DNA of 64,000 nt. Origin: Chaetoceros tenuissimus (Eukaryota; Bacillariophyta; Thalassiosirophyceae; Chaetocerotales; Chaetocerotaceae). The stretch lies in the NCBI GenBank assembly GCA_021927905.1, contig BLLK01000039.1:62001-126000 (forward strand), written 5' to 3'. How positions within the stretch are numbered: position 1 is the stretch's first letter; every line of letters begins with the position of its first letter. The translations under genes and the position numbers were made by a program. The notes beneath the pieces are model-generated. The model did no database searches and had not been told where the DNA came from. It worked only from the letters and a program-made list of their open reading frames with translations. Below, piece by piece: positions 3,939 through 42,539 of this stretch.

Positions 3939-6900
3939 TCAAGACTTTAATAGGTATGTATACCATTCCATAAAGGCATCCCATGTATATTCATAGTTAT
4001 TCTGCTGATTTGCATAAACCTCAGGTTCTGGACGGAACAATACAAGGTTGTATTGTGCAAATTTATCTGCTTTTGTCATCCATTCTTTGTATGCAATTGG
4101 ATCTGTAGATTCTTTTGGTTGAGGAAATTCTGGAGGTTTTGGTCCAGTACTTCTACCTGTGACTCTCATTACTACCTGTTTTGATGCTAATTGTAGTTCA
4201 TGGGAAAATTTCAATTTGTGTCCTTGAGCTAATTGGTATCGTTTGTTTGATGAGCGACCAATTGTATTTTTCTTTGTTTCTTTATAAATTGGAATTTGTT
4301 TGAATTGAGTATTTTCAGTGAGTTCCTTTCGGCTGAGGTTCCAAAGTGCAAATCCTCTAAAAGAATAAATGCTTGGATAAGGTGAGGAACAAAGGTCATA
4401 ATTAGAGTCCTTGGATGGGTTATAGACTCTATATACAGCAGAATTACATGGTTCACCAGCATATTCATCTCTCTCCTTTCTTATAGCTAGTGTGTCTTTT
4501 GTTGTTTGTCTATTAGAATCAAAATCTTTGCAGCGAGCTGTATATACAACATGATCGTTAACATTGATGCCTCTGAATTCTTGAGTACAGAGAAGTTGTG
4601 TACCACCCAATAGAAACGAAGCTACTAAGAATTCAGAAAATTCCATGTAGGATGTTATTTTGTTGTATACTTTCTCAAGTAATACACGTACTTTTTGATC
4701 TAATCCACTGTCTGTACCTTGACTCCCATGCTTTTCATACATCTCATGTGCATATGCTAAAATTGAAAGTGCATGTTTGATATCTTTACTGCCTTCAACT
4801 GGATATGGTACCACATAAAATGAAGCATTAATACTATCTGTAGTATTCCCGAGAACATAATTGGCACAATTACTTCCAAATGCAAGACTTATAGTGTTGT
4901 TATGGGCCACAACCAATCCATTACAGTCTGGCAAGGAATTTCGAAGGTAACTGTAAAATCGTTGTAAGTCTTCATTGGTTTTCATTTGTTTTAGAATAGA
5001 TTCAACAATGGTGGATATCATGGGAAATTCTTTGACAATGTTCATTATATTGTCTATCATTGCATTAGTGTCATCTGTAGCTGGTAAATTTTCCACTTGT
5101 GGTCGATAAGTATCCCACTTAACTACCTCATCCTTTTTGGTAAAAATATCTTCTAAAATTTCTATTGGAGTTTTATTGGATGGTGGTAATTGTTCTTCTG
5201 AATTCTCTTCTTCGGAGTCCAATGTATCTGGATACAATGCATGAATAGAAACTTCCAAGTCCCCGTTATCATTTTCACTTCCAGTTAATACAATTGGTCC
5301 ATAGATATCTTTGGTTGGTCTAGGATAATTTCCTGCACATCCATCCTTGCCATGCTTTCCTTCTTCACAGCGAGATTTATGTAGATGCATTTGAGCTCGA
5401 GAAGAATGAATTTCACAGAATTGTTTTCCTTCTTTTGTTTGTAGAGAAAGAGGTGTTGTCATTAAAAGAGGTGTAATTAGATGACCTGCTTGTAGATGAG
5501 GATACTTGGTATGAAATGGGTCTATTTCCCTGATAAAATTGTCCAAGAGAAAGTAAATTAGAACCAATGGATGGTAGTGTGTATTAAATTGAGAATTGAT
5601 GATTTCACTAATTTTTTGGGTCAATTTCTCATCTTTTGAAAATCTTGTCAGGACTTCTGAATTTATAGCCTTCCATAGCAATAAATGTGCATGCAATTTA
5701 CCCCCTTTAGTAACATCCGTTGCACCACACATTTCATAAATAGTGCCATAAACTCCTTTGGCACGGTTCAGAATATTGTCGGTTTTCTTTACCTTTTCAC
5801 CAGTACTTTGAGTATCATTGAACCTCAGTCCAAACAACTCCAAGCAATATGTATCCAAAATATGATTGTATTCATTGGCTACTGCAACTGGATTTGAATT
5901 GATATAATTCATTCTCGAAGGATATGATAAATCATGACCTTCATATGATGTGCCATTTTTTGCTGCTTCTACCAATTCAGATGGATTACTGCATACTGAT
6001 GGAAACTCTGTATTGTTGTGGGATTCCATTGAAGCTCGTATTATATTGAAATTGTTGTATAGATCTAAACTTATTGTATCAAAGCAAGACTGAGGTCCAT
6101 ATTTTCTCATGAGAGAATATTGATTGCTTTTATTTCTCAATTTTGTCATCAATCCACTGATAACATCACTTTTATGAATGAGCAAAACATCTAAGAGAGT
6201 TTTTGATAAATGTTTAGCTTCTGGACTTGTAGGATTTTCAATTGCTGCTGCCAAACGGTCCTCAAAATCTGGACTTCCAACAATTTTTTTGAATTCTGAC
6301 AAAGCTTCACTTGTGTTGTGATCTTTTAAAGAAGCTACTATCGCTCGCATACTATTATGACGAAGAAATTGATTGAAAAGGAACATTAGAAGTTCCTTGC
6401 ACTGACTTGCATGCATTGTATATTGAAGGAGAAGGTGATGAGTTTGCTTTGTACTTAAAGCTCCTTTGTTTTTTCCATAAGCACGTCCAAATAGAAAGAC
6501 TTTTGGAAAACAGCCTGCTATTAAGTTGTCATTTTCTATGAATTCATTGGCTAGTTTTGATCCTCTTTTCATTGGAAAAGGTTTTGGTTGTATAAGTGCT
6601 TCTTGCACTTGACGTAAATAATTTCGAATGGAAGATATGTTTGGATTTTCTCTATCTTGAAGAATTTCATTGTTGTCATTATCACTGTCACTCTCATCAT
6701 CATTACTTGAATGTGATGATGCATTGGACAAAATATCAATATCTGGCAGTACTGTTGAGTAACTCATTTGCAAAGGTGTTTCTTCATTGTTAGTTGATTC
6801 TTCATCGATGATTTCAGATACATGATTGTAATCAAAACTTTCATCTGTGAAATACATTTGTTTATTTTCATATGAAGTCTGAAGATCCTTGAGTTTTTTC

Positions 6901-9119
6901 CAATCAAAGTTACGCAGTTGAGATTCAATTTCCTCATAAGTAGGATAGTGGAACTTCTTTGATTGAGCAAGAGCATTGACATATTTTTGAACTGTAAGCT
7001 GTTGAAATAAAACATGGGATCTTATTTTCATTTCTGAAGAACCATAAAACCAATCCATCATTTTATCCGTATCACCATTTGGACTAAGAAAGAGAATGAA
7101 TATATTATCTCGTAATAAATCAAGAATATGCCATTGACTGTTGTCTCTTCTATTGTATGTTATGTCATCCTGTTGCATACAAATAGCATGTCCTGACATT
7201 TTCTTGGTAATCAGAGATTCTTTGATTCTCACTATTTTGATGAAGAGTCGATACATGGCAGTACACATTGTTTCTACATTGTTGGGACATGTCAAATTAC
7301 ACCTATTCAAATCCCCAAAGTCAATACCTTTGGCAATACTAAAAGATGGGACTATGTTCTGTTTTAAATCAGAATAGCATCCCGTACAAATTTGGATCCA
7401 TTCTTTTTTATTTTCGTCAATTTCAACAAATTCTGGATGTAAATAGTAGAGAGCATATTGTCCATTGCTATCCTCAGTTTCATATTGAGAGTACAGCTTC
7501 CATAAATCAAATTTATCTGTATCTCCTTTTTCATTGATTGGTAATCTTATTCCTGATAATTTCTGTTTTCTATTCTGAAATAATTGTACTTCTTCTTCTT
7601 TACATTGAAGTATATTACCAAACTCTGAAATTGAACATCGATGGAAACGAGTATCTTCTCGATTGATATCCTTGATTCCACAAACTGAACAAGTTAATAT
7701 CTCTGGAGCTTTTTCTGGATAGGTCATGCCCAGTTTTGATCGGACTGAGCTTATCAATTTATCGCATTCTTCCTCAGATACCATTTCCTTACTCAATTCT
7801 TCAAGAATTTTTGACTTGGATAATTCATGCTTAGGAAACTTGTGATATCCAGCATTGATGTAATTTAACATTACATTTGTTTCAATATTTTGTTCAAAGT
7901 TAGCATCAACCTCTTCTGTAAATTGAGTGAGGTCTTCTGTTATAGGTGTCTTGAAGGATACATTTAATGTTTTGTTGGTTTTCTTTCGACAGTTGCGTTT
8001 CCTCTGAGCATCCCTTGCTCTACTTTCTTCGGTTGATGGAGCTTTGCGCTTCCTTTGAGCATCCCTTGCTCTATTCTGTGGTGTACGCTTCCTCTGAGCA
8101 TCCCTTGCTCTATTCTGTGGTGTACGCTTCCTCTGAGCATCCCTTGCTCTGCTTTCTTTGGTTGATGGAGCTTTGCGCTTCCTCTGAGCATCCCTTGCTC
8201 TATTCTGTGGTGTACGCTTCCTCTGAGCATCCCTTGCTCTGCTTTGTTGTGTTGACAATTTTTTGGGCATATTGCATTTCCTCTTTCTATCTTTTGTTTT
8301 GATAATTTCACGTTGAGATTGCCCTGCAATGGAGCGGGCTACTTTCATTTGTAAATTGTTTCTAGTATAATGTATCCTTTCCAGATCACCTTCCTCATTA
8401 ATAATGACTAGCCCATTGCATTGATTTGGATCAATTTCTTCCAAATACAGATAATGAGTATTTTCTATCTTTGCCTCCAATGCACATGTAAATGCATGAT
8501 GAAGAATGTATACATTGCAATCTGTGGATGGTCTATACTGTTTCTCTATTTTTGGCATTCCCAACATTTCTGTAAGAAGATGAAAATCAGACGTATTTTT
8601 AAGAATCAAACTTGATGAAACAATACTTCTTTGTACATCTGCAACTAAACAGATGATATTGATTCTGTAGATAACCATTAAAGATATCATTTCAAACATT
8701 CCAGCTTCTTTTGTATCTGTGCCCATTTCAAGCATGCATTTCTCTAAAGTATCCCGATCATAATCAGATGGATTGGAATAGTTTCTTACACAACACCTTA
8801 AATCTTGTTCCAATTCTTTATCATTTTCTATTAAAGAAGAAAGTCTTGCAACTGCATCTCTCCGTAAAAATCCATGGATAATTCCTTGATTAGAAAAATA
8901 GGGATGTTTACAAATGGATCGATAAAAACAGTTTCCATCTCCATCGACTTCTTTTAAAAGGAATAGTTTGCCATTCCATTGAATAGCATAGCCATCATAT
9001 CTGTGTGGATTAAATGATGGATGCGGCATTTTATTTTCATAATTACTTTGTGTACAAAATATGTTCTGATAGTGTTTCATTGTCTTCCAACCTACTGTGG
9101 ATTCACTGGCACGATTCAT
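3939..9119 (-). CDS. Helitron Rep protein with N-terminal OTU domain, helicase missing
   Basis: This single uninterrupted 1726-codon frame encodes a rolling-circle transposon initiator. Residues about 50-226 form an OTU cysteine-protease-like domain with the DGDGNCFYRS motif (catalytic Cys64) and a late THYLYL motif (His222). Residues 293-375 hold six RARDAQRKR repeats separated by short linkers, basic and possibly nuclear-targeting. A Cys-rich segment (CSVCG, CTGC) follows, as in large Helitron-like proteins. The HUH nuclease motif is LHAHLLLW near residue 1142, and the paired catalytic tyrosines appear as YVVPY, the YxxxY spacing known for Helitrons. Autonomous Helitrons normally continue into a Pif1-type SF1B helicase; none is visible here. 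After the stop, about 110 bases in another frame still read as Helitron-like protein, so the C-terminal side is probably broken. OTU domains are known in some Helitron/Helentron lineages. Host targets of this one are unknown. Confidence 0.85.
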   Translation of the reverse strand: MNRASESTVGWKTMKHYQNIFCTQSNYENKMPHPSFNPHRYDGYAIQWNGKLFLLKEVDGDGNCFYRSICKHPYFSNQGIIHGFLRRDAVARLSSLIENDKELEQDLRCCVRNYSNPSDYDRDTLEKCMLEMGTDTKEAGMFEMISLMVIYRINIICLVADVQRSIVSSSLILKNTSDFHLLTEMLGMPKIEKQYRPSTDCNVYILHHAFTCALEAKIENTHYLYLEEIDPNQCNGLVIINEEGDLERIHYTRNNLQMKVARSIAGQSQREIIKTKDRKRKCNMPKKLSTQQSRARDAQRKRTPQNRARDAQRKRKAPSTKESRARDAQRKRTPQNRARDAQRKRTPQNRARDAQRKRKAPSTEESRARDAQRKRNCRKKTNKTLNVSFKTPITEDLTQFTEEVDANFEQNIETNVMLNYINAGYHKFPKHELSKSKILEELSKEMVSEEECDKLISSVRSKLGMTYPEKAPEILTCSVCGIKDINREDTRFHRCSISEFGNILQCKEEEVQLFQNRKQKLSGIRLPINEKGDTDKFDLWKLYSQYETEDSNGQYALYYLHPEFVEIDENKKEWIQICTGCYSDLKQNIVPSFSIAKGIDFGDLNRCNLTCPNNVETMCTAMYRLFIKIVRIKESLITKKMSGHAICMQQDDITYNRRDNSQWHILDLLRDNIFILFLSPNGDTDKMMDWFYGSSEMKIRSHVLFQQLTVQKYVNALAQSKKFHYPTYEEIESQLRNFDWKKLKDLQTSYENKQMYFTDESFDYNHVSEIIDEESTNNEETPLQMSYSTVLPDIDILSNASSHSSNDDESDSDNDNNEILQDRENPNISSIRNYLRQVQEALIQPKPFPMKRGSKLANEFIENDNLIAGCFPKVFLFGRAYGKNKGALSTKQTHHLLLQYTMHASQCKELLMFLFNQFLRHNSMRAIVASLKDHNTSEALSEFKKIVGSPDFEDRLAAAIENPTSPEAKHLSKTLLDVLLIHKSDVISGLMTKLRNKSNQYSLMRKYGPQSCFDTISLDLYNNFNIIRASMESHNNTEFPSVCSNPSELVEAAKNGTSYEGHDLSYPSRMNYINSNPVAVANEYNHILDTYCLELFGLRFNDTQSTGEKVKKTDNILNRAKGVYGTIYEMCGATDVTKGGKLHAHLLLWKAINSEVLTRFSKDEKLTQKISEIINSQFNTHYHPLVLIYFLLDNFIREIDPFHTKYPHLQAGHLITPLLMTTPLSLQTKEGKQFCEIHSSRAQMHLHKSRCEEGKHGKDGCAGNYPRPTKDIYGPIVLTGSENDNGDLEVSIHALYPDTLDSEEENSEEQLPPSNKTPIEILEDIFTKKDEVVKWDTYRPQVENLPATDDTNAMIDNIMNIVKEFPMISTIVESILKQMKTNEDLQRFYSYLRNSLPDCNGLVVAHNNTISLAFGSNCANYVLGNTTDSINASFYVVPYPVEGSKDIKHALSILAYAHEMYEKHGSQGTDSGLDQKVRVLLEKVYNKITSYMEFSEFLVASFLLGGTQLLCTQEFRGINVNDHVVYTARCKDFDSNRQTTKDTLAIRKERDEYAGEPCNSAVYRVYNPSKDSNYDLCSSPYPSIYSFRGFALWNLSRKELTENTQFKQIPIYKETKKNTIGRSSNKRYQLAQGHKLKFSHELQLASKQVVMRVTGRSTGPKPPEFPQPKESTDPIAYKEWMTKADKFAQYNLVLFRPEPEVYANQQNNYEYTWDAFMEWYTYLLKS
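7994..8250 (-). repeat. Six in-frame 30-39 bp repeats in the Rep gene
   Basis: The plus strand shows GAGCATCCCTTGCTCT six times, alternating between two linker types (encoding TPQN or KAPST-containing linkers). The alternation implies that a two-repeat block was duplicated. The near-identity of the copies suggests recent expansion. Confidence 0.9.
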
Positions 9120-14139: not shown

Positions 14140-17100
14140 GAAAGTACTTGTGTTATACAACACAGTACACCTCGGCTCACGGATGGAAAGAACCTCTCTA
14201 TTTAAACCATATGTTTATAGAGAGCCCAACCAATATTTTAGAACTCAGTCTGATCAACTGGAGTTATGGTTGGGAGCTCAGCAGAAGCCTATGGAGCAAG
14301 TAACCGTGTGAGCATTCCTATGGAATGAAATAAAGATATTTTGCTAATAAAATTTTCCAAATTTTCCAAATATATAGAATGGATGATGTTCCAACTTTCA
14401 CTGCATTTGTGCAGAATATTCTAGGCGTAGCTGTTGCTAGAGCTTGCACAGAATTAATTGCTTATATCCCAACATTTAGACAATTGATGACAATCTCAGA
14501 AGAAGACATTGATAGATTCATTTCACAAGTCCATTCTTCTAACTCTGGACGCGCTGCTGCTCAGCGTATTGTGTATGGACCTGCTTTGGCTTCTAATCTT
14601 AAGGCATTGTCTTTCACCCTTAAAGATAGAGCAAGTTGTAATGCTCTCTATGATGCTGCAGGTCTTGCTGCCTTGGATCAAGCCCAGTTAGCTCTCATGC
14701 AGACTTATCGTGACCAAGCACTACAAGATAGAGATAATGATGATGCTGCAACTCTACCAGATATTGATGTGCCAAAATTTACTACAGACAATTATGATGA
14801 TTTTATGGCAAAATTCCTAACTGTCGTTTCACGTACAAAAGGTGTACATGGTGTGTCTATCAACTACATTATTCGTCAAGTTGATGGAAACTTCAATGAT
14901 ATCCATGCAACTCGAAAAGTTTAAGTTGAGAGCATGTTTATCAAGAAGAGGTCCGAAATTCCAAAAAGATTCCAAGACCCTCTTTGGACTATACCTCCAA
15001 TATATTGGAACGACAGGACATGGCGCAAACCTTGTGAAACAGTTCCAACCTCGTAACCAAGGCTTTCAGCTGCACTTTGCTTTTGTCAACCATTTTGCAA
15101 ATGATACATATCTTCAAAATAAGGCAGCTCAAGCAGCAATAGATTTGACTAAATTGAATTACTCTGGAGATAAACCTCACTTCAAAATGGAAGACTACTA
15201 TAATCGTATGACACAGTGTTTCAATGATCTAGCAAATGGAGGTGCCCAGTATGCTATGAATGATCACCAGAAGATCCAAGCTTTCTCTCAAGGATTGAAG
15301 AATGCTACTGCGGTTAGATACCATGTGGATGCAAAGCAGGCATGGGATGACATTCAAGGACCAAAAGATTTCGACACTTACTACAATTTGTTCTCGTCTA
15401 AACTTCAGCAATATCGTACTTTGATGGGAGATGGTACACATACTGATAGTAGACGAATCAATAATGTTGATACAGGAGGCAGAGGCAGAGGACGTGGTGG
15501 ACGATTTGGAAGAGGAGGTGGTAGAGGTTGTTGTCGTGGCCGTGGTAGAGGTAGAGGCTCTTACCACAATAACAATCTTTACCACAATCCTCCAGGTCTG
15601 CCTAACTTTACTGCTGAAGCAAGGAATTACCCACAGGACATGTTTAATAAGATGTCTAAAATGCAGAAAGCGGCGGTCCAGCAAGCGAAATTGGATAATG
15701 GATGGAAAGACGGCCGTACACCACCTGATGGCTTCACAGTGAATGGTGACGGATACGCTATCCCTTCTCGGCAAATTGTTGCTGCAATTCAGACTCAGTT
15801 GAACATTAGACAGTTCCAGCAGGTACAGACCCCTGGTGCTGGTACACCACTTCCACCACCACCACCGCCTCCGCCAGCTGCTCCTGCACCGGCTCCTCCT
15901 ATTCCTGGAACCATCACTACCAATAATGCAGGTCAAGCTTTTGGCTCGTCTGCATCAAGGGGGGGAAATGGTGATGCTTCTAGTGTTATTTCCACTGTCA
16001 ATGGCCGATCGTATCAAGGTCATGTGTATGATGCGAATGGTAATAGAATCTCCTGACTGTTATGCCAGTTGTTATTGATGGCTGGCCTATTTCTCTTGTC
16101 CCGTAGACTGTTTCGGGAACTATTGCTTTGTTCCACTTGTACTCCAACTTATGCCATTCGAGCATTCATTACAACTACTATCTCTGCAACTAGATCATCC
16201 TTCGATATTGAATCCTTTGTGCATCCTACTTTGACTGCAAATGAACATCAGCGTGGTACGAGACTTGGTATTGACTCATGGGCAGATACGAATTGTGCTG
16301 GAAAACATGCCTTTGTTGAAGAATTTGTTGTCGACAAGTTTGTTACTGCTGGTGGATTCAGTGCTTCACTTGGAACTATTCCAGATTTACCCATTGCAAA
16401 TGTACTCTATGCTTATGATACTGATGATGGCAAGACATACATCATCGAATGCAATAACTCAATATACCTTGGTGATAGGATGGATGACTCTTTGATGAAT
16501 CCGATACAGGCGGAAGAGTCTGATGTGAGGGTTGATACGAGACCTAAGCGATATTACTCGGATCCGCATGCACAAACCATAACTTTTCCCTGTGGTACTG
16601 TGATTCCTGTAGAATATGATGGGGCATTGCTGTTCATTTCTATTCGTAGACCTACTGCTGATGAAATCCATGTCTGTCCAAGACTTATCATGTCAGCTAA
16701 GTTCCCTTGGGATCCTAGTATTCCTGGTGGTAACTTTTCTCAGCCAAGATCTGTGTTCTCTACTTCATCAAGTATCCTTGATTCAGTGCAAGATGATCCA
16801 GTTGGATCCTCTCTCATGTCACTGCATTTGCTATCTGCTGTGCAATCTACTGCTGTACTTCATCCACATGAGGATACCTTTAAATCACTACAAGCTATGA
16901 ATTTGTATAAGAGTAAAGAAAGTATCAGTCCTGAGGAGTTGGCACGATTGCTCAAGATCGGGTTGAAAACCGCCCAAAGGACTTTGCAGGCAACTACTTC
17001 GAAATTCATCAGAACTACTGGTGCTCTCTCTCGGCGTTTCAAGACTGAAAAGGCTCAGCTACGATATAAACAATTGTCTAGAATCTTCGGCAAGTTTTAT

Positions 17101-19615
17101 TGCGACTATCTCAAAGTCAATGCTACTTCGATTCATGGACTCGGTTTCTATAAGTTTCTTCCATGTGAGAATGAGACTTCTGAAACTACTGGTAGGACCC
17201 TTAGGTACTTTTTGCATGTCATAGGTCTGCCGTATAGCTTGCACTCTGATAACCATGGTAACTTTAAAGATGGACTCTTCAAGAGATTGATGAGGAAATT
17301 CGGAATTTACCAGACCTTCACTGAGCCACACTCGCCATAGCAGAATAGGGCTGAGCCAGCTATTGGAGAGGTCAAGAAATATGCTAGAAAGATTATGATG
17401 AGTACTGATACACCTATCCGCCTTTGGTGCTTTTGTTATGAGTATACTGCTGACCTTTTATCACTTCTGGCAACTGGACGGTTCGATCTCCAGGGGAGAA
17501 CGCCGTACGAAATGATTATGCACTATACTCCGGATATCTCAGAATATGTTTCATTTGGTTGGTTTCAGTGGTGTTACTACTTCGATGAGGACTCTAAGAG
17601 CAAGAAGATCTGTCGTTGGTTGGGTCCTGCTCATGAAGTAGGACAGTCTTTCTGTCACTGGGTACTTCTAAGCAATGGAAGTTTTATAGCTCGATCATCT
17701 GTCATTCCTAAACCGGATTATGAGCTAGAGTCTGATGAATTGAAGCGTCGTACCAAGATCTTCATGGACTGTATACATGAGAAAATTGGAAATACCAAGG
17801 TACCAATCTATAATAATATCTACCCTCAGCGTGTTTACTATGATGCTTTTGATGACCCTGTTGAGGATGATGAGAGTCAACTACCGTATGGCGAAGAACA
17901 GCATGAAGATGTTATTGATAGGTATCTGGAGGCACTTGACAATTACATTAATTCTGAAGTAATCATGCCTGACAAGGACGGTACTGCTGTACTTACTAAG
18001 GTGAAAGGTCGTAAGCGTGATGCCGCAGGTAATCCTGTAGGAGAGGCGAATGAAAATCCTATTCTTGATACCAGAGTGTATGAATTAGAATTCCCAGATG
18101 GTAGGATTGAGGAATATGCAGTTAATATGATTGCAGAGAACTTATTCGAGCAGGCTGATGAGGATGGCTGGGATTCTGGTATCATTGAAGAATTCTTAGA
18201 TATACGCAAGGATGCTTCTATAGCTGTACCCAAAGAACAAGGCACGTATTTTAATAGTGCTCGTGGTGAGAGGAACGTTGTAACCACCAAAGGGTGGGAA
18301 GTCCAAGTTAAATGGAGAGACAAGTCTACAAGTTGGATCTCACTCAAAGCTGCAAAGGAGGGCGATCCACTAGGTCTAGCTGAGTTGGCTGTAGCATTGA
18401 AAGTACAAGATGAGCCTGCTTTTAAGTGGTGGATCAACCATGCCTTGAGACAACGAGCCCGACTGATCTCAAGATTGAAATCAAATGTCATTAGAAAAGG
18501 CAAGACTAAGTTTGGGATACAGGTTCCTGGCTCATGGGAGGAAGCTATCAAGATTGATGAAGCAAATAATTACACGCTTTGGCATGACGCCATCAAGAAG
18601 GAAATGGTCAACGCTAAATGTGCTTTTAAGTTACTGGCTCGTGGAGATAAGCCTTCACCTGGATATAACGAGATCTTATGTCATTTGGTATTTGATGTCA
18701 AGCTGGATATGACCCGAAAAGCAAGATATGTTGCTGGAGGACACTTGACTAATGTTCCCGCAAATATGACATATTCTAGTGTTGTTTCAAGAGATACCGT
18801 TCGAATCGGATTCATCTTGATATACTAGCTGGTGACATCCAGAATGCTTTTCTTTCTGCTCCTACTGAAGAGAAAATATTCTTCTATGCAGGAGATGAAT
18901 GGGGTGCTGATAAGGACCGCGTAGTTGTTGTAGTCCGTGCCCTATATGGTCTCAAATCTAGTGCTCTACAATTTCGTAACCATCTTGCTGCAAAGCTTGG
19001 TAACAAGCTTGGTCTCAAGTCCTGTCTTGCTGATCCTGATCTATGGTACAAACCATGTATCGATTCTGATGGAAGTGAGTACTACTCATACATTCTCGTA
19101 TATGTTGATGATCTGTTGATTATTAATAAGAATCCGAAGCGATTTATGGAACGGATCCAAGGTGACATTACTGTCAAGAAGGAGAGCATTGGGCCTCCTG
19201 ACAGATACCTAGGAGCTGACGTCAGAAAGGTTGAGGATGATGGTGCCAAGTCATTTTGGACTGTGAGTTCTAATTCTTATCTTGACAAGGCCATTAAGAA
19301 TCTTAAGGCTAAGCTCAAGGAGAGTGGTTTGGAATACAACAAGAAACTCTCTGATCCAGAATACAGACCAAAACAACCATTTACTACTGCATCTTATCGA
19401 CCTGAACTTGATACTTCTGAAGAATGTACTGATGACCAAGTTACTCTATTCCAGAATCTAATTGGGATATAGGATAGATATCGGATATGAGGTATCATTT
19501 TTGTCTAGATATTTAGTTACACCAAGGACTGGTCATCTCTTACAAGCAATTCTTGTATTCAAATTCCTCGATATTCACAAGGATAACGAACTGGTTTTGT
19601 GATTGTAATTTGGAA
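14140..19615 (+). mobile_element. Ty1/copia retrotransposon fossil, CoDi-like
   Basis: Plus-strand fossil resembling the copia elements of diatoms. Parts in order are a leader with a TATTTAAA box that may belong to a 5' LTR (from about 14150), a gag-like region (14379-16056) ending in a Gly/Arg-rich stretch near 15470-15560 and a proline run near 15850, a protease/integrase region (16070-17760), a linker typical of this group (17760-18500), a reverse transcriptase with YVDDLL near 19100, and the start of the RNase H connection up to about 19615. The 3' end, including most of RNase H and the 3' LTR, is absent, and LINE sequence follows directly. It is broken, with roughly five interruptions plus the truncation. 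Long frames remain readable, suggesting a moderately young age, but without two LTRs it cannot be dated. Confidence 0.85.
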
Positions 19616-20758: not shown

Positions 20759-20760
20759 AA

Positions 20761-21563
20761 GGGATCTGTGAAGTTAAACATGCACGACATATTTATAAAA
20801 TTAAAACTACTATCAACGGATGTATTCTTTCCACTGCATATCTCAAACATGTGATATTCAATTGATAGCCACAACTTGGAACTTCCCTCAAGAGGTCCAT
20901 TCCGTATTAGTTGGGGGTGGGCCGAAGGTCCACCTCACTCCTCTAGCAAATCTTGGAGATTGCTAAGACGCCTAAAACAATGTGAAAGTCGTAGTAACCT
21001 TACTAAACTTCAAATCTGACTTGCTTGGTCATTGCTTTCCTCGCAAGTCAGTTCTCCATCTAATATGCGAAGCTTCAGTATACCTTCTGGATTTCACATC
21101 AGAAGACTGGTCTTCGCGCTTAGGTTCTATTTTCTCGACTAGGTTGTCAAACCTAACGCAAGAGTGCTTACTGACTTGTGCACCCTAGCGTCACAAAGTA
21201 ATAGCTCTTGCAACCAGGGAGTGGTGGGTGGGTCAATAAAAATTCTTAAACAAGAGTATCGGTATGGCCAAAATGTTCTTTCAAAGGAAAGAACCCGATT
21301 TGAACCTCGAAATAGAAAATTTATGAGATCGTAATCCTTCTCATTTCAAATCCTCTGACTCCATTCTCTTTTTACCCGTGACTGAAAATCAAATAAATTT
21401 TACAAAAGTGTTTGTCTCTCAGGCTTTACGAGCTCTCCAATAGAATGCGAGTCCTCTTCGCTTAAATACACTAGATCCTCTTGTTAATAATTCTAATCCT
21501 ACAAATACGTCGTGCATGTTTAACTGTCGTCGAGTCCCAGGTTAACTCAATGAGTAAGGTTAG
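20761..21563. mobile_element. Internally deleted inverted-repeat element (about 0.8 kb)
   Basis: The left part (20761 to about 21219) is nearly identical to 21564-22017, and the right part (21234-21563) is nearly identical to 25311-25639. It therefore carries both ends of the larger element next door and lacks its middle. Inverted sequences AGTTAAACATGCACGAC (20772) and its complement (21509-21525) mark the two ends. The larger copy follows directly, head to tail. No coding content is seen; a conserved 68-codon frame inside the left repeat also occurs in the second copy but looks incidental. Confidence 0.8.
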
Positions 21564-22020
21564 GGATCTGTGAAGTTAAACATGCACGACATATTTATAA
21601 AATTAAAACTACTATCAACGGATGTATTCTTTCCACTGCATATCTCAAACATGTGATATTCAATTGATAGCCACAACTTGGAACTTCCCTCAAGAGGTCC
21701 ATTCCGTATTAGTTGGGGGTGGGCCGAAGGTCCACCTCACTCCTCTAGCAAATCTTGGAGATTGCTAAGACGCCTAAAACAATGTGAAAGTCGTAGTAAC
21801 CTTACTAAACTTCAAATCTGACTTGCTTGGTCATTGCTTTCCTCGCAAGTCAGTTCTCCATCTAATATGCGAAGCTTCAGTATACCTTCTGGATTTCACA
21901 TCAGAAGACTGGTCTTCGCGCTTAGGTTCTATTTTCTCGACTAGGTTGTCAAACCTAACGCAAGAGTGCTTACCGACTTGTGCACCCTAGCGTCACAAAG
22001 TAATAGCTCTTGCAACCCCC

Positions 22021-23203
22021 CCATTCAAAATGAGCTAAAGGGACACTATCTTTCACTTGAATGAATCTCCTCAATATCTTGAGCTATCTAAGAGTCCCTT
22101 CCATACGTCTTTCCAGGATCCTTACAGACTACTGTAGAGAATATAATATGCGCTTCAAATACTTTCTAATGCTTTGAGCAATTTTCCCTTATCCCCATGT
22201 CTGGGATACTTTCTTTAGCGATTTTCATACTTCCACCTTTGATTGAGTAGTTTGATGGTAAAGTCGTGCTTGTATTTCTTTGATTGCTAAGCTTACAGCT
22301 CCTCTCCTAATCAACTTCCCATTCAACTCACTTCAATAGTAAAATCTTGGAGTTTGTGCAGTTGTCTAGAACGATATGAAAGTCGTAGTAACCTTACTAA
22401 ACTTCAAATCTGATTTCCTCAGTCTTTGATTTCTTTTGGAAACAGCTCTCAGTCTAATATGCGAAACTTCAGTATACCTTCTGGATTTCACATCAGAAGA
22501 CTGGTCTTCGCGCTTAGGTTCTATTTTCTCGACTAGGTTGTCAAACCTAACGCAAGAGTGCTTACCGACTTGTGCACCCTAGCGTCACAAAGTAATAGCT
22601 CTTGCAACCCCCCCATTCAAAATGAGCTAAAGGGACACTATCTTTCACTTGAATGAATCTCCTCAATATCTCGAGCTATCTAAGAGTCCCTTCCATATGT
22701 CTTTCCAGGATCCTTACAGACTACTGTAGAGAATATAATATGCGCTTCAAATACTTTCTAATGCTTTGAGCAATTTTCCCTTATCCCCATGTCTGGGATA
22801 CTTTCTTTAGCGATTTTCATACTTCCACCTTTGATTGAGTAGTTTGATGGTAAAGTCGTGCTTGTATTTCTTTGATTGCTAAGCTTACAGCTCCTCTCCT
22901 AATCAACTTCCCATTCAACTCACTTCAATAGTAAAATCTTGGAGTTTGTGCAGTTGTCTAGAACGATATGAAAGTCGTAGTAACCTTACTAAACTTCAAA
23001 TCTGATTTCCTCAGTCTTTGATTTCTTTTGGAAACAGCTCTCAGTCTAATATGCGAAACTTCAGTATACTTTCTGGATTTCACATCAGAAGACTGGTCTT
23101 CGCGCTTAGGTTCTATTTTCTCGACTAGGTTGTCAAACCAAACGCAAGAGTGCTTACCGACTTGTGCACCCTAGCGTCATAAAGTAATAGCACTTGCTAC
23201 CCC
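22021..23203. repeat. Two tandem 592-bp units
   Basis: Unit 1 is 22021-22612 and unit 2 is 22613-23203, each beginning CCATTCAAAATGAGC and ending in a run of C after AATAGCTCTTGC or its variant. The second half of each unit is related to the left end of the element (the segment from AAAGTCGTAGTAACC to CTTGCAACC), giving a ladder of four related copies from 20982 to 23200. The two units differ at only a few bases. Confidence 0.9.
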
Positions 23204-23257
23204 CCTCAAAATTATTCTTGAAATAAAGTTGGGTTGTTCCTATTCTGTATCCGATGT

Positions 23258-25033
23258 CTAGGCAAGTATGTTCCTGCCCAAGCACATCAGGTGCCTATTG
23301 AATACCAATCTCAGTGATTGGATACAATACAGAAGAAACGTGTTCATTCTATCTCCGGTGACTAGGGCACGATGATCTTGTAGCACATCAAGAACTTCTT
23401 GAATGGAATTCTCAGGGATAGTTTCCAGTACAGAAGTTTTCTCGTCAAATACCACAATTGGTGAATCTCTCAACAGAACTCCAGCAATCGCGGTGCTCTC
23501 CCTTTTGCCTTTAGATGCACCAAACGATATGTCCCATCTCCGAGGCAATGAGCAAATAATATCAATTAATTGACAAGATTCAGCAAATTTATCCAACTCC
23601 GAGTCAACTGCATCTCTCTTTCCATATGTAATATTTGTACAAATGTTGTCATTGAACAAGCTCGTAGCTAATAAACCTACTCCAATTAGTTCACGAAGAC
23701 TCGCTTGGATATATTGTAGGATATATTGTAGAACTACTCCGATCATTTCACGAAGACTCGCATGAATAGGTTGTAGAACTACTCCGAACATTTCACTGAG
23801 CTTCTCTTGGATTTCGATGCGTATATCAGTTCCATCGACTTTAAATATACTTCCAAGAACCTCATTACATTTAAACAAGAAACTGCTCTTCGTAGTTCCT
23901 ACAACTTTCATCATCTTGAATGATTCACCCTTCAACTCTTTGTGATCGCCTGGACATCGATGTTTAACGATATAACTGTCAAACTCTACTAAGAGATTCA
24001 GTTCACTGACATTATATCTTGATGATGATTCGATAGGATTACCTGTAACTACAAGGTCTGAGTCTTCGGCGAGAAGTGCCGAAATATTTCTCCAATATGC
24101 CAATGCCTTTATGAATACGTAGTGTACGCTTCCATGGTAGTAGAGCAATCCGAACAAGTCAAGAATATAAGTCAATACAGCAATGACCCATCCAATTTCA
24201 AGCCCAGAACATTCAACCCATGTGCACTCAATGAGATCTGTATTCTCGTTGTATCCATTGTCTACGTAGCAATCAAAACGATTCTTAACTTCGTGTGCGA
24301 CAAAAGACAGCGAAAGGCAGTTCAAGTAGCTTTCGATGATTGTACAAGCCAAAGTATTTTCAGCGACGGTTGACAGTATCCATAAGAAAAGATATTTCTC
24401 AAACGTGGCACCTTGAACCTTCTTTTTAACGAGTAGCCATGTACAGATTTTAATCAGAGTCCAGAGGTTTCCCCAACTTCGCGCATCCTGAACTGCAAAC
24501 TTACTAGGATAACTGTCAGTTGCAGATTCGACAGGGCTCAAGATTAGATATTCAATCCAACAAGTCTTCTCAGTGTCATTGATAGTACACCCATCGGAAG
24601 CGAGTGTTGGACTTGCTACTTGTAAAATCCAGGTCGACCGAAAGACTACGAAGTAGGCAAGGCACAATCCCTGCACTAAAGAAGGGCTCACTCTATCCTG
24701 AACTTTTATAGTACAGAGTAGCATAAAGGTTTCGATCGAGTACGTGAGGCACATTCTTGGCACTAAAGAAGGTCTCATTCTGCCTTGGATTCTAATAGGT
24801 GCCCGAAGATAACAACGAACTCCAATAGAACATGCCGCTATGAACTCAGCTTTTAGGATACTTGTTTCCAAAGGCCAGATTATAATCATGGCGAGAATGA
24901 AGACGAATCCGCATAGCTGAAGCAAGTTTTGTATTACCGAAAGCAATACCACCAATCTTCCTTTAAAGGAAACGGAGTTATTTGTAAGGCAGGATAACTC
25001 GAACCCCCTTAACTCTCCTCCTGTCGCTCCCAT
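23258..25033 (-). CDS. ABC half-transporter-derived protein with a degenerate ATPase, inside a transposon
   Basis: A 591-codon frame. Residues 20-330 contain several hydrophobic stretches likely to span membranes. Residues 375-570 align by eye with an ABC nucleotide-binding domain of the ABCB/HMT type: VVGTTKSSF where Walker A belongs, GSIFKVDGTDIRI, SLFNDNICTNITYGKRDA, a SLPRRWD segment, PIVVFDEKTS as Walker B (Asp530, Glu531 kept), and QDHRALVTGDRM at the H-loop. Key residues are lost: no Walker A GxGKS, no LSGGQ signature (SKGKREST instead), and Asp where the H-loop His should be. The Q-loop segment is repeated three times (410-453). Such a protein should not hydrolyse ATP normally. It is probably a captured, decaying host gene fragment, although a frame this long is surprising for pure decay. 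It could be expressed as a non-catalytic membrane protein; nothing in the sequence shows that. Confidence 0.6.
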   Translation of the reverse strand: MGATGGELRGFELSCLTNNSVSFKGRLVVLLSVIQNLLQLCGFVFILAMIIIWPLETSILKAEFIAACSIGVRCYLRAPIRIQGRMRPSLVPRMCLTYSIETFMLLCTIKVQDRVSPSLVQGLCLAYFVVFRSTWILQVASPTLASDGCTINDTEKTCWIEYLILSPVESATDSYPSKFAVQDARSWGNLWTLIKICTWLLVKKKVQGATFEKYLFLWILSTVAENTLACTIIESYLNCLSLSFVAHEVKNRFDCYVDNGYNENTDLIECTWVECSGLEIGWVIAVLTYILDLFGLLYYHGSVHYVFIKALAYWRNISALLAEDSDLVVTGNPIESSSRYNVSELNLLVEFDSYIVKHRCPGDHKELKGESFKMMKVVGTTKSSFLFKCNEVLGSIFKVDGTDIRIEIQEKLSEMFGVVLQPIHASLREMIGVVLQYILQYIQASLRELIGVGLLATSLFNDNICTNITYGKRDAVDSELDKFAESCQLIDIICSLPRRWDISFGASKGKRESTAIAGVLLRDSPIVVFDEKTSVLETIPENSIQEVLDVLQDHRALVTGDRMNTFLLYCIQSLRLVFNRHLMCLGRNILA

Positions 25034-25640
25034 CTCAAATTTTCTCTAAAGCTTCTGAATCGAATAAATTCTTCAAGTAGAAACTTCCTATACAACTGTT
25101 GTCCAGGAAACGCAATTGTCTCTTCAAAGAGGATAAATGAACCCCCTAATTCCTCTTGAGAGCTTTAAGTTGGCTAGGCTCAAAAGTAATGCTGAATTGA
25201 TATTCTTTGGAGTCGAGATAATCGAATGAAATGGTAAAAGGTCCAAAGCTCGAAATGTAGTAGCGAAAATCAATCGAATTAGACTCTTTAGATTAGAGTG
25301 ATACTTTTTATAAAAATTCTTAAACAAGAGTATCGGTATGGCCAAAATGTTCTTTCAAAGGAAAGAACCCGATTTGAACCTCGAAATAGAAAATTTATGA
25401 GATCGTAATCCTTCTCATTTCAAATCCTCTGACTCCATTCTCTTTTTACCCGTGACTGAAAATCAAATAAATTTTACAAAAGTGTTTGTCTCTCAGGCTT
25501 TACGAGCTCTCCAATAGAATGTGAGTCCTCTTCGCTTAAATACACTAGATCCTCTTGTTAATAATTCTAATCCTACAAATACGTCGTGCATGTTTAACTG
25601 TCGTCGAGTCCCAGGTTAACTCAATGAGTAAGGTTAGGTC

Positions 25641-34800: not shown

Positions 34801-36182
34801 TGATCTACTTCCTCCACTTCTTCATCATATGCTAGCGCATGAGATCCATGTATAGTGGCTAGCGCTGCTACGCCTATTGGTGATCCACCATATCATGAGT
34901 TGTCTCAGATAAATGCTTGTTCTGTTTCTGTCACTGCGCCCTCTTCTGGTTCTCTAGTGTTTCCGAAGTTTACTCCTGAGCTTCGTGAATTGTTGCAAGT
35001 GCTGGCTTCTCATGGACTTGACAACACTCGTTGGTACTACTCATGATCAGTCTATTATTGCTGATCTTTCAGGATGAACCAAGTTTAAAGATGCTGGTAA
35101 GCATCCTCATGTCAGTAAATATGGTGGATATTCTCTTGTTCAACTGGATCATCCTCCTGGCTCTTTCAAGCGCATACCTATGCAGTATACTCCTTCTCTG
35201 CCAATCACTGTCATCAACTTCACAAAATTTAGAGACCCTTTGAAGCACATCAAGTCAGAATTCACTTCCTATTTCCATTCATTAAGGCAGTTCATCTGTG
35301 TGTGGAAGTATACCGATGGATCCTTTGAAATTTGTTCTCTCTTCAAGCTACAAATTTTAAATCCAAGTATTGAGCAATACTACTCCTGAATTTGTCATGT
35401 TTCTTCCGAAACTTTGCAACGGTACAAATGCAGAGAGTATGCGACCAACACAGACTTCAAGCATGTTTTCTCTGTTGATTCTATTCTAGGGTATACAAAT
35501 GATTCTTCTACACAGCTGCTACAAGATCCATCTGCTATTCACGAAGTTGCATGTGATACATCTAAATCTCCTTCTGCTGTCACTATTGCTGATGTAGATT
35601 CAGCTACCGTCTCAACTACTACTGGTAATTCTTATACAGCTCGTTCTCGTTCTGTAACTTTTGCTCCAGGGACTAAATCTCCTGTTGCATCACCGTCGGA
35701 CTGTGTTAGGTCATCCATATGCATCTCAGAAGAACAAGTGGTGTTTTTTTGAAAGATTTAGATGCTATTGTACCTTCTGCTCCTCTTTTTTTAAAGCCTC
35801 CTGCTTTTCGTTACAACAATGAGGTTACCGCACAGCTTTGGCACCATCAGTTGTGCCATATGGGGAATGCACAGCTTTCGCATCTTTGGAAGTACATGGA
35901 TTGTGTTCCTTGAATTCCTCGACCCTATCCATTAATGTCTTGTTCTTCTTGCATGAGTTCTTCTTGCATGGGAAACCAGTTTCACAGTTCCATTTGATCA
36001 AGGATATCCGTAATGACCCCAATGGCCGTCTCTTCCAACATGTTTTTGCTGATCACAGGTTCATTGTGCAAAAGTCTAAAAACCTTGAGCGGTACAAGAG
36101 ACTTTGTGTGTACAACGGGGACAACAATTATGTGTGCATCGAGTGTGTATGGTCCACATATGTCTTCTTATATACCTCTGAC
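31840..36182 (+). mobile_element. Ty1/copia retrotransposon fossil, 5' two thirds
   Basis: Plus-strand fossil with CoDi-like features. It has a gag-like region (31840 to about 33000, then 33243-33620) with a CxxC...H...C zinc-knuckle-like motif near 33560, an acidic Ser/Thr-rich region carrying two near-identical repeats (LAGEDTAA type, 34110-34280), a pre-integrase domain (LWHHQLCHMGNAQLSHLWK, about 35840), and the start of an integrase (about 36030-36180). It stops abruptly where the 173-bp direct repeat begins at 36183. RT, RNase H and the 3' LTR are missing. It is heavily broken, with of the order of ten interruptions, so it is older than the copia at 14-19.6 kb. Confidence 0.7.
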
Positions 36183-36355
36183 AATAAGATGAAATAGAAT
36201 GAAGAATTGAATTGAATCTGCAGTATGAAGAGTGCGTTGTAAGTATTAATGCAGCGTGTGATAAATCAAATTTGTAATTTGGAAGCTTTGTATTGAAATC
36301 AAAACCATGACTAGGTGCTGATCTTTTGTTATTGTATGTAGTCATAACGAGAGTT
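36183..36355. repeat. 173-bp direct repeat, copy 1 (LTR-like)
   Basis: It begins CAATAAGATGAAATAG and ends CATAACGAGAGTT. It is almost identical to 42366-42539. Read on the minus strand, the start (TTATGACTACATACAATAAC) resembles copia LTR starts, so it may be an LTR remnant. It abuts the truncation point of the copia fossil on the left. The telomere-like TTTAGG run follows at once. Confidence 0.85.
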
Positions 36356-39169: not shown

Positions 39170-40646
39170 GCATGCATTGTCTATAGTCTTTGTCTATTTG
39201 GACAAGTTTTATTTGGGAGTGTGCTTTTTCCTGCACTATTTTTCGTAATGTTGTGGAGTTATGAAAAGTACCCAGCGGATCATAGAAGAAACAACTGAAT
39301 TGAAGGTACCATTGTGCTGGATCTTTAATAGCAAGTTTGTAGTTTTGGTTTACAAATTGATCATACATGTATTGTGTAATTTCCGAGTTAACAGTACGAG
39401 CATTATGGTGAAACGTGTATTGGAGCATATTGATTTGAGGATGTGGAATATCAGTGCATAGATTTTCTGGTAAGTTACCCTGGAGGGAGTGAGCCATTCT
39501 TGATGCTCCTTGATCTGCCCATGTGTTTGCCATGGCAAACACAAAATTTGGTTGAGGCAGAATCTCCACCTGTCCCGCTTCTGTGTCCTTTTTGTGGATG
39601 TTTCCATAGTTTGTGAGTTGGTGAGATTTAATATGGAGGAAGAGGTGATGGCGAATTTGTAGCCCCACTGTATTTTCAGTGATGGTTTCATCGTGGTCCA
39701 AAAGGGAGCCCGTGGGTGATGGTAAATTTTGATTGCAAAAGTTGGAGGCTCCAATATCTGTGGTTACTTGTTCAATAATTTCTAGAAATTGGTTTCGAAC
39801 ATGGTGTGGTACTGATGATGGGTATGAGATTCTAGATGCACGCCTAGAAGGATCCGGCCAGTGGCACTTGAGGGCATGACTGAGCTCTGAGAAGTGGTGC
39901 ATAGATGTTATGTGAATGTGCTTACGGAGCTGTTGCCTTATGGTCTTGGAGTGAGGGTGAAAGTATAGAAATACTTGGAGGAGAACTATTCTAGAGTCTA
40001 GGAGAAACATTGTAGGAGCTCCAAATGGGCAGGAATTTAGCGATAGTGTTAGTGCATGAGATTCTCCCATATTATTGTCTGTGAAGGATGTGCCATATGA
40101 TTGTGTGAGGATGTAGTTACGGATTAAGACAGGTTTTGGTGAGATATTGAGCATGTCTTGTTCAATGTGTGTGTCAAGATGCATGAGTATACTTTCTGCA
40201 ACGGTGGTGTTTGTCTGATGGTCATATGCAGAGTCAGAGGAGAATATGAGGGGAGAAGCATAGCGATTAAAGATGTGTTGAATGATGCAGTGGCCAGTAT
40301 TCTGGAGAGGGATCCTTTGCATCGCAGTGAATCTTTGTAGGGATGTGATAGGGGTGTCATTCCATGATGGGAATTGTGCAGTGCCAAAGAGGGAGTGCAT
40401 GGTGAACTCTGCAACTGGAAGTTCTTTTTCATTCAGGAAAATAGACTTATCATAGGTGGCAGCATGGTCATGAAGCGATAGTTCCAGGAAATGAGAGAGA
40501 TGGTTGTATGATGGCATGAGTTCTCTTGCAGCTGTTTGCAGGAGGAGGCGTCGCTGTGATGCTGGTACGGCAGTATTGGCTGCTGGCGTAAGTGAAGGAG
40601 GTAGTGACTGTTCCGTACGGTGTTTTTGTAAGGATTGTAAGGTCAT
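39144..40646 (-). CDS. RNase H domain of a LINE-like element
   Basis: A 500-codon frame. The RNase H catalytic acids appear in order: Asp138 (IFSSDSAYD), Glu195 (NNMGESHAL), Asp217 (MFLLDSRIV) and Asp378 (ANTWADQGASRMAH). Family role: degrading the RNA strand of RNA/DNA hybrids during reverse transcription. It overlaps the RT-bearing frame upstream (40468-41070) in a different frame. The part of RT with the YxDD motif is not visible between them, so the element is probably defective. The coding strand is unusually rich in A and C. Confidence 0.6.
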   Translation of the reverse strand: MTLQSLQKHRTEQSLPPSLTPAANTAVPASQRRLLLQTAARELMPSYNHLSHFLELSLHDHAATYDKSIFLNEKELPVAEFTMHSLFGTAQFPSWNDTPITSLQRFTAMQRIPLQNTGHCIIQHIFNRYASPLIFSSDSAYDHQTNTTVAESILMHLDTHIEQDMLNISPKPVLIRNYILTQSYGTSFTDNNMGESHALTLSLNSCPFGAPTMFLLDSRIVLLQVFLYFHPHSKTIRQQLRKHIHITSMHHFSELSHALKCHWPDPSRRASRISYPSSVPHHVRNQFLEIIEQVTTDIGASNFCNQNLPSPTGSLLDHDETITENTVGLQIRHHLFLHIKSHQLTNYGNIHKKDTEAGQVEILPQPNFVFAMANTWADQGASRMAHSLQGNLPENLCTDIPHPQINMLQYTFHHNARTVNSEITQYMYDQFVNQNYKLAIKDPAQWYLQFSCFFYDPLGTFHNSTTLRKIVQEKAHSQIKLVQIDKDYRQCMHATAMPSY

Positions 40647-41070
40647 GCAGAGATTCAGCTATCCAATCAATGTATCCATTTGATGGGAAGCCCATGAGAT
40701 GAAATGGTAGCATCTGGAGTTCTGGTGTGATTCCATCAAAGAATTTTTCTTTGTCTTCATCAAGCTGACAAAGGAGGATTTCTTCTCTGCCGAGGGTGTC
40801 ATGTACTGCCAAGAGATCGTTCAACATGCAGTCAGCACAAGAGTAGCCAGGTCTATACACAGCGATGGTGTCATCATATACTTGTAGTTTCTCTACTGTG
40901 TTAGAAAGCAATGTTGCCACAATGGTGTCGACGTACGAGTTGTATGCATGGAGGATGGATATAGGACATTTGTCAGTAGAGTCTGGTTTATCAATGAGGA
41001 CTCTTCCCATAATTTTTAATTGAGGTGGCAGAATGCATGTGACTAGAATGAAGTTTGTGAGCACTCTCAT
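40468..41070 (-). pseudogene. LINE-like reverse transcriptase, N-terminal half
   Basis: A 200-codon frame. DKPDSTDKCPISILHAYNS matches the NYRPISLL-type motif, YRPGYSCADCMLNDLLAVHD the GFRPGRSC motif, and LCQLDEDKEKFFDGITPE motif A, with the first catalytic Asp. HLMGFP and TPYGTVTTSFTYAS follow as in LINEs. The GxPQG and YxDD motifs are not found, so RT is incomplete. Confidence 0.65.
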
Positions 41071-41263
41071 CCAACATGGGTATAATCGTGCGAGAACATT
41101 CAGTGTAAATCCATTGAGTCTAGCGAAAGATGGGACATATCAGATTTTTGTGACCATAGAGGGAACTGGTTTTGTAAAGGTGAGCATGTCCATGTTAGTG
41201 GTGGAGCATTGCTACACTTTTGCCTGATATGGCCATTGGGTATGTGGGGAGTTAGTGTTACCC

Positions 41264-42365: not shown

Positions 42366-42539
42366 CAATAAGATGAAATAGAATGAAGAATTGAATTGAA
42401 TCTGCAGTAAGAAGAGTGCGTTGTAAGTACTAATGCAGTGTGTGATAAATCAAATTTGTAATTTGGAAGCTTTGTATTGAAATCAAAACCATGACTAGGT
42501 GCTGATCTTTTGTTATTGTATGTAGTCATAACGAGAGTT
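42366..42539. repeat. 173-bp direct repeat, copy 2 (LTR-like)
   Basis: Almost identical to 36183-36355, in the same orientation and 6.18 kb away. The two copies bracket the minus-strand RT/RNase H block. The identity limits are sharp on both sides and no clear target-site duplication is visible. Confidence 0.85.

Follow-up and report, generated by a model that had tools for sequence, protein, structure and literature searches.

A probable DIRS-order retrotransposon copy with a captured half-transporter sequence in the diatom Chaetoceros tenuissimus

The element described here lies at about 20760–25638 of a 64,000-nucleotide stretch of Chaetoceros tenuissimus DNA (assembly GCA_021927905.1, contig BLLK01000039.1, positions 62001–126000), which we call the window. 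Very probably it is a tyrosine-recombinase (YR) retrotransposon of the DIRS order (Ngaro/PAT-like), present as a young, non-autonomous copy and carrying most of a host half-transporter message that was captured long ago and had apparently been spliced. The genome searched was the assembly of 41,027,912 bases in 68 contigs; contigs are given as C and loci as L numbers, and the window lies on C28. An initial annotation of this DNA had proposed a Pack-type element at 21564–25640, bounded by inverted repeats and containing a captured piece of a host ATP-binding cassette (ABC) transporter.

Repeat anatomy of the element

A BLAST comparison of the region with the window paired 20760–21215 with 21562–22017 and 21236–21564 with 25310–25638, and with these repeats the span first proposed becomes about 20760–25638, nearly unchanged at the upper end and longer at the lower. 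Read in the minus (coding) direction, the order is A1, an open reading frame (ORF), 592-bp units, B1, A2, a 20-bp spacer and B2 (Table 1), which is the split direct-repeat arrangement A1-[ORF]-B1A2-B2 of DIRS-order (Ngaro/PAT-like) elements. Between A1 and A2 there is one difference in 329 positions and between B1 and B2 one in 456; with 2 differences in 785 positions overall, the insertion in the window is a young one. The trinucleotide CCT stands at both outer ends and at the inner junction. Other free B ends, in C27, C54 and C48, carry CC followed by a variable base, and the C43 ends were unreadable as far as the terminus. The bases common to the two outer ends are CCT in the window element and CC in the C27 copy, and no target duplication longer than 2–3 bases was found at the two free insertions having both ends.

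Table 1. Features of the element, in the coding direction except for the inverted arm
Feature	Position	Strand	Remarks
A1 repeat (left end)	25310–25638	-	329 bp; outermost CCT at 25636–25638
5′ leader	25034–25309	-	separates A1 from the ORF start
Fusion ORF, 591 codons	23258–25033	-	
RNase H stub of the element's own pol, ORF N-terminus	24968–25036	-	match to L016 RNase H
Captured host half-transporter sequence	23229–24946	-	tblastn with host protein; host codons ~108–831, large in-frame deletions
592-bp repeat units (B-repeat part + recombinase remnant)	21733–23212	-	
Decayed recombinase C-terminus, copy 1	22728–22916	-	tblastn of L016 YR, E=0.005 (4.9-kb search)
Decayed recombinase C-terminus, copy 2	22136–22324	-	tblastn of L016 YR, E=0.005
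B1 repeat	21562–22017	-	456 bp
A2 repeat	21236–21564	-	abuts B1; CCT at 21562–21564 common to both
Spacer, 20 bp, containing CCCACCCACC ahead of B2	21216–21235	-	similar motif ahead of B2 in L045
B2 repeat (right end)	20760–21215	-	terminal CCT at 20760–20762
Inverted arm in B1	21574–21618	.	pairs with 21481–21525 (A2) and 25555–25599 (A1)

The inverted repeats on which the first boundaries were drawn do exist: those at 21574–21618 and 25555–25599 are 45 nt long and 82% complementary, with the first 17 nt perfect. They do not mark the ends of the element, however, because the same arm recurs at 21481–21525 and the repeat units extend to 25638 and 20760. The arms are subterminal, lying in B and A at about 10 and 37 bases from the B/A junction. 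Precise B/A joins were found in the window, C27, C14, C32, C13 (two) and C65. In five of five junctions the best score of the A arm, alone or tied, is with the B arm belonging to the same copy, although the C32 and C13 copies are near-identical and these rows therefore represent fewer than five independent tests. From this comparison the arms seem to co-vary, and they are probably important for folding or recombinase binding.

Arms of this kind with host sequence between them were the basis for reading the element as a Pack-type or other terminal-inverted-repeat DNA transposon that had captured genomic transporter DNA. That reading is now scarcely credible, since the arms are not terminal and near-identical direct repeats extend beyond them, remnants of RNase H and of the putative recombinase lie inside the element, and the captured copy lacks a 175-bp intron of the host gene. 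Neither terminal inverted repeats nor a target-site duplication, both expected of Pack-type elements, was found, and the repeats correspond to the split direct repeats of YR retrotransposons. Two tandem copies of one DNA transposon were also considered, a reading set aside in view of the RNase H and YR-like ORFs together with the A1-B1A2-B2 order.

Within the window's 592-bp units (22030–23212), part of the B repeat adjoins a recombinase remnant, and in other ABC-bearing copies (e.g. L012 and L022) the ABC part is joined to B without such a remnant. The two structures suggest that recombination may have occurred between element types.

The captured half-transporter and its source gene

The 591-codon minus-strand frame of the initial annotation was found again, and its similarity to ABC ATPases, on which that annotation had let its interpretation stand or fall, is real. 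A phmmer search of PDB sequences matched ORF residues 421–565 to ABCB1 (whole-sequence E=1e-22; best stretch, i-E 1e-11), and the Pfam ABC_tran profile gave 14.6 bits, below its cut-off of 25. The transporter-derived part had been placed at residues 375–570; homology to the host transporter described below is more extensive and covers ORF codons ~30–565 with gaps, tblastn with the host protein matching host codons 108–242, 389–422 and 520–829, all in one frame. Of the ATPase motifs said to have been lost, Walker A and the H-loop His are indeed missing, the signature is degraded, and Walker B (VVFDE) is kept. Walker A and most of the transmembrane-domain sequence have been deleted. The ORF thus does not possess the Walker A, signature and H-loop of a functional half-transporter such as ABCB6/HMT1; the ATPase is dead, as the initial annotation held, and the product is not predicted to work as a transporter.

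The N-terminus of the ORF has a different origin. A 6-kb search gave 65% identity across 23 residues (E=3.8e-4) between ORF codons 1–22 and the RNase H of a relative on C13 (L016). In L019 (E=0.020) and L018 (E=0.092), too, this stub precedes the ABC part. Because the RNase H stub begins the ABC part in all three copies that keep this end, one fusion event probably founded the family. At the other end of the ORF, the C-terminal segment of the transporter is doubled at 23281–23436, with the two occurrences 101 bp apart and in two frames: host codons 793–831 occur twice in the window, and their second occurrence is out of frame. C54, C65, C32 and C43 show this doubling as well.

The host source gene lies on another contig, C46 (L043), and encodes a half-transporter of 877 codons in a predicted three-exon model, whose predicted introns of 85 and 175 bp have GT-AG borders and keep the frame. 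Its exon-2 frame matches ABC_membrane (E=4.9e-22) and ABC_tran (E=6.8e-22), and its best PDB match is ABCB6 (E=2.9e-95), in a search made with the identical frame of a 5′-truncated neighbouring duplicate. This duplicate lies ~2.37 kb from the half-transporter (region of L043 1968–4012 and 4337–6381), and the exon 2 and exon 3 frames of the two match. The homology to this gene, together with the ABCB6 and ABCB1 matches, supports the earlier proposal that a host ABCB/HMT half-transporter was captured.

How it was captured is suggested by the introns. The 175-bp host intron is absent from all five element loci that span its position, which is crossed without a gap in the window, C54, C65 and C43 and with a 3-codon gap in C32. 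The 85-bp intron was covered by no match in the loci searched. Because the 175-bp intron is absent and relatives of the element bear a putative reverse transcriptase (RT), the simplest reading is apparently that the captured sequence came from a spliced mRNA, and template switching may have been the route.

Relatives, copies and the open frame

Of RT and RNase H, the window copy retains only the RNase H stub, and it has no YR; relatives also bear on the assignment to the DIRS order. L016 encodes an RNase H and a 520-aa YR-like ORF; the adjoining B and A repeats share 75% and 81% identity with their counterparts in the window. Matches to the YR-like protein number 31 across the genome, several of them full length at 29–34% identity. 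At L045 (C57), a pol frame of 1275 aa and a YR-like frame of 513 aa are followed by a B-A-B layout, in which identical 478-bp B repeats enclose a 446-bp segment and the motif CCCACCC stands right before the second repeat, as it does before B2 of the window element. The RNase H domains of L016 and L045 are 66% identical over 90 residues. Pfam detected no RT or YR domain directly in either locus. A stretch upstream of another relative on C29 matches RVT_1 (C29:439047–439394; E=6.8e-4, below the Pfam curated cut-off), and the L045 pol is 51% identical to this RVT_1-matching stretch (L048; E=1e-96). In PMC5890265, the RT of Symbiodinium DIRS elements is likewise described as aligning poorly with Pfam seeds. 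No methyltransferase domain, which distinguishes DIRS and PAT elements from Ngaro elements, was found by Pfam in the L045 pol, in a search that also missed the RT there. Identification of the putative recombinase draws on an R-K-RxxR-W-Y pattern seen in alignments of three members, on gene order and on the repeats.

Several observations weigh against this assignment and against a spliced origin of the captured sequence. The YR-like motif has R in place of the usual H of HxxR, and in one of the three members the first Arg is K. The recombinase was matched by no Pfam or PDB profile (Pfam, PDB phmmer/hmmsearch), a PF00589 scan of the genome gave no match within the YR-like family, and hhalign against XerD and lambda Int was negative, with shallow alignments. 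The 8 kb examined at L045 contained no A1 copy, so that only the B1-A2-B2 part of the split-repeat layout is seen there; L016 is without RT, and no intact autonomous partner of the exact subfamily was present among the relatives read. The CC core is absent at three diverged B ends (C19, C32:2399k and C17). Finally, two distant paralogs are unbroken across the position of the 175-bp intron, and for this reason a later gain of the intron by the host gene, after the capture, is possible.

A YR-like ORF, a short CC core and head-to-tail arrays would also fit a Crypton-like DNA transposon, with a YR and no RT, that inserts as a circle and took its transporter sequence from an intronless paralog. 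We consider this very improbable. RNase H adjoins the YR-like ORF in L016, a putative RT, RNase H and a YR-like frame occur together in L045, and the long split direct repeats differ from Cryptons, which according to PMC3212892 are without long direct repeats; the combination of a YR without RT and no long repeats that characterises Cryptons is not what we find. Helitron ends and an IS607-like GG target were considered for the ends of the element and dropped given the RT evidence. Viral contigs, scanned once with the L045 YR-like protein, yielded no relative. Elsewhere in the genome, nine sub-threshold Phage_integrase matches, mostly in ~400-codon frames, occur on C17, C21, C44, C54 and C57 and are perhaps another YR element family.

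For the DIRS-order element that we favour, the following course of events may be proposed. While an ancestral element was being reverse transcribed, the polymerase would have switched from the RNase H region to a spliced ABCB6/HMT1-like mRNA and, in a second switch, from this mRNA back to the B repeat, so replacing the remainder of RNase H together with the downstream domain and the recombinase. Related full elements could then have acted in trans, copying the chimera and, through their recombinase, inserting it as a circle. The ATPase would have been lost early via in-frame Walker A deletions, and the open frame would most likely persist since interrupted genomic RNA propagates less well.

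The B end has at least 34 matches in the genome and the A end at least 23, three of which are the inverted arm alone. Outside the window, the ORF itself has matches at seven element loci, two on C65 and one each on C54, C32, C43, C48 and C29. Its absence or shattering in every other copy would have told against the initial annotation, but it is present in others, in damaged form; in C65 a B/A junction was found together with the N-terminal ABC part. Deletions of 5 and 6 codons around Walker A are common to the window, C54, C65 and C32, and catalysis was therefore probably lost before these four copies separated. The initial annotation had raised the possibility of a recent capture; judged from the RNase H-transporter fusion (three copies) and the Walker A deletions (four) common to diverged copies, which have 47–80% protein identity to the ORF, the capture is old. 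A head-to-tail A/B array without the ABC part occurs at C27:1763808–1770158 (L009 3808–10000 and L010 1–158), with short units of ~790–800 bp and two longer ones with 592-bp repeats; eight of its ten units are 99–100% identical to the window and two 96%. Possible origins are concatemers of circles and successive integrations at the junction.

Stops occur in five of the six other loci used. All 12 indels within matches and the two large deletions keep the window frame, a count that by itself is little informative since BLAST admits in-frame gaps only inside a match. The three main ORF matches lie in one frame; L020, L022 and L011 shift frame. The frame has probably been preserved during propagation of the lineage. 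The earlier suggestion that it was kept for some other role may hold, the frame being conserved, but the nonsynonymous/synonymous ratio on the window branch does not differ significantly from that of damaged copies.

The intact frame could mean that the element still uses the ABC-derived product, e.g. as a membrane protein, under selection. Codons 200–396 do look constrained, with pairwise ω (nonsynonymous/synonymous rate ratio) of 0.38 and 0.40 (L020, C65; overlapping segments), 0.44 and 0.54 (C43) and an upper confidence limit below 1 in three of the four segments. Elsewhere ω was 0.77–0.86, with confidence intervals including 1, against C54, C32, C48 and three C65 segments, and 1.2–1.3 against the C43 C-terminal part; against the host it was 0.48 and 0.67. 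On the window branch, 80 polarised changes comprised 50 nonsynonymous, 30 synonymous and no stops, a nonsynonymous/synonymous ratio of 0.51 that rises to 0.62 when host agreement is also required. Four damaged copies pooled (C54, with 14, 5 and 0, and C48 not being among them) had 236 nonsynonymous and 96 synonymous changes and 12 stops, and the window differed significantly neither in synonymous share (30/80 against 96/332, Fisher p=0.14) nor in stops (0/80 against 12/344, p=0.13). The synonymous share exceeds the codon-site expectation both in the window (p=0.003) and in the damaged copies (p=0.007), which makes that expectation an unfair baseline. The evidence for protein-level selection is mixed, and with Walker A and most of the membrane domain gone, continued use of the product under selection appears unlikely. 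A tentative and still doubtful explanation is that the ORF is kept translatable because its product or its uninterrupted translation serves the element, either as a membrane-anchored accessory protein or by protecting the genomic RNA from nonsense-mediated decay.

Other features of the window, whose G+C content is 33–43% per 2 kb, include a pair of 174-bp direct repeats (36182–36355 and 42366–42539; 98% identical, 6.2 kb apart) that enclose minus-strand ORFs with strong GC skew. Within them, 40617–41139 resembles L014 5466–5997, which overlaps an RVT_1 match at C32:2212619, and the region is probably another retroelement. A 1726-codon ORF at 3939–9119 has a weak, sub-cut-off Helitron_like_N match (E 0.0048), and its start looks OTU-like. 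The broken frames at 14379–19472 resemble a copia-type retrotransposon; two of them had no Pfam match.

Comparison with known systems

The element shares with Ngaro and PAT-like elements the repeats, the order of putative RT-RNase H and then the YR-like frame in its relatives, and isolated AB units, as described in PMC8547959 and PMC4157794, the former of which gives the Ngaro layout as A1-[ORFs]-B1A2B2. Both families are reported from the stramenopile Ectocarpus in PMC12477816. Unlike these elements, the window copy lacks both RT and YR and contains a host gene, and the YR-like motif is RxxR rather than HxxR. Pack-type elements are likewise mobile with pieces of host genes, but the window element has no terminal inverted repeats and no long target duplication, and the intron is absent. 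ORF codons ~30–565 descend from an ABCB6/HMT1-type half-transporter, the host gene matching ABCB6 best, whereas in the element Walker A, the H-loop His and much of the membrane domain have been deleted or changed.

Little is understood of the life cycle of DIRS-order elements, which integrate via a recombinase. A captured message that lacks an intron, whose junction is mapped, whose source gene lies in the same genome and which exists in copies of varied age would indicate that DIRS reverse transcription can use a host mRNA as template, and this pathway becomes testable in a diatom that is probably culturable. The element also presents an open frame that outlives its catalytic function within a mobile element.

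Gene acquisition by retroelements is already known, DIRS elements included, from DNMT3 in Symbiodinium and from Bs1 in maize. In the literature searched, which included few subscription papers, neither a transporter nor an inactivated host message was described from an element of the DIRS order, and a recombinase-type retrotransposon with a captured host gene is apparently a rare case. The dinoflagellate SymbioDIRS-Dnmt3, whose Pol bears DNMT3 domains, is likewise an A-coding-B-A-B element with an acquired non-native gene (PMC5890265). Its methyltransferase domain lies inside an otherwise complete Pol, whereas in the window element most of the coding region has given way to an inactivated half-transporter, the copy is non-autonomous and the source gene is in the same genome. 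The closest parallel for a transduced transporter is maize Bs1, whose hybrid ORF includes transduced host plasma-membrane ATPase sequence (PMC13317346); Bs1, however, belongs to the LTR elements and holds pieces of three genes, and the window element is most probably a YR retrotransposon with one captured gene.

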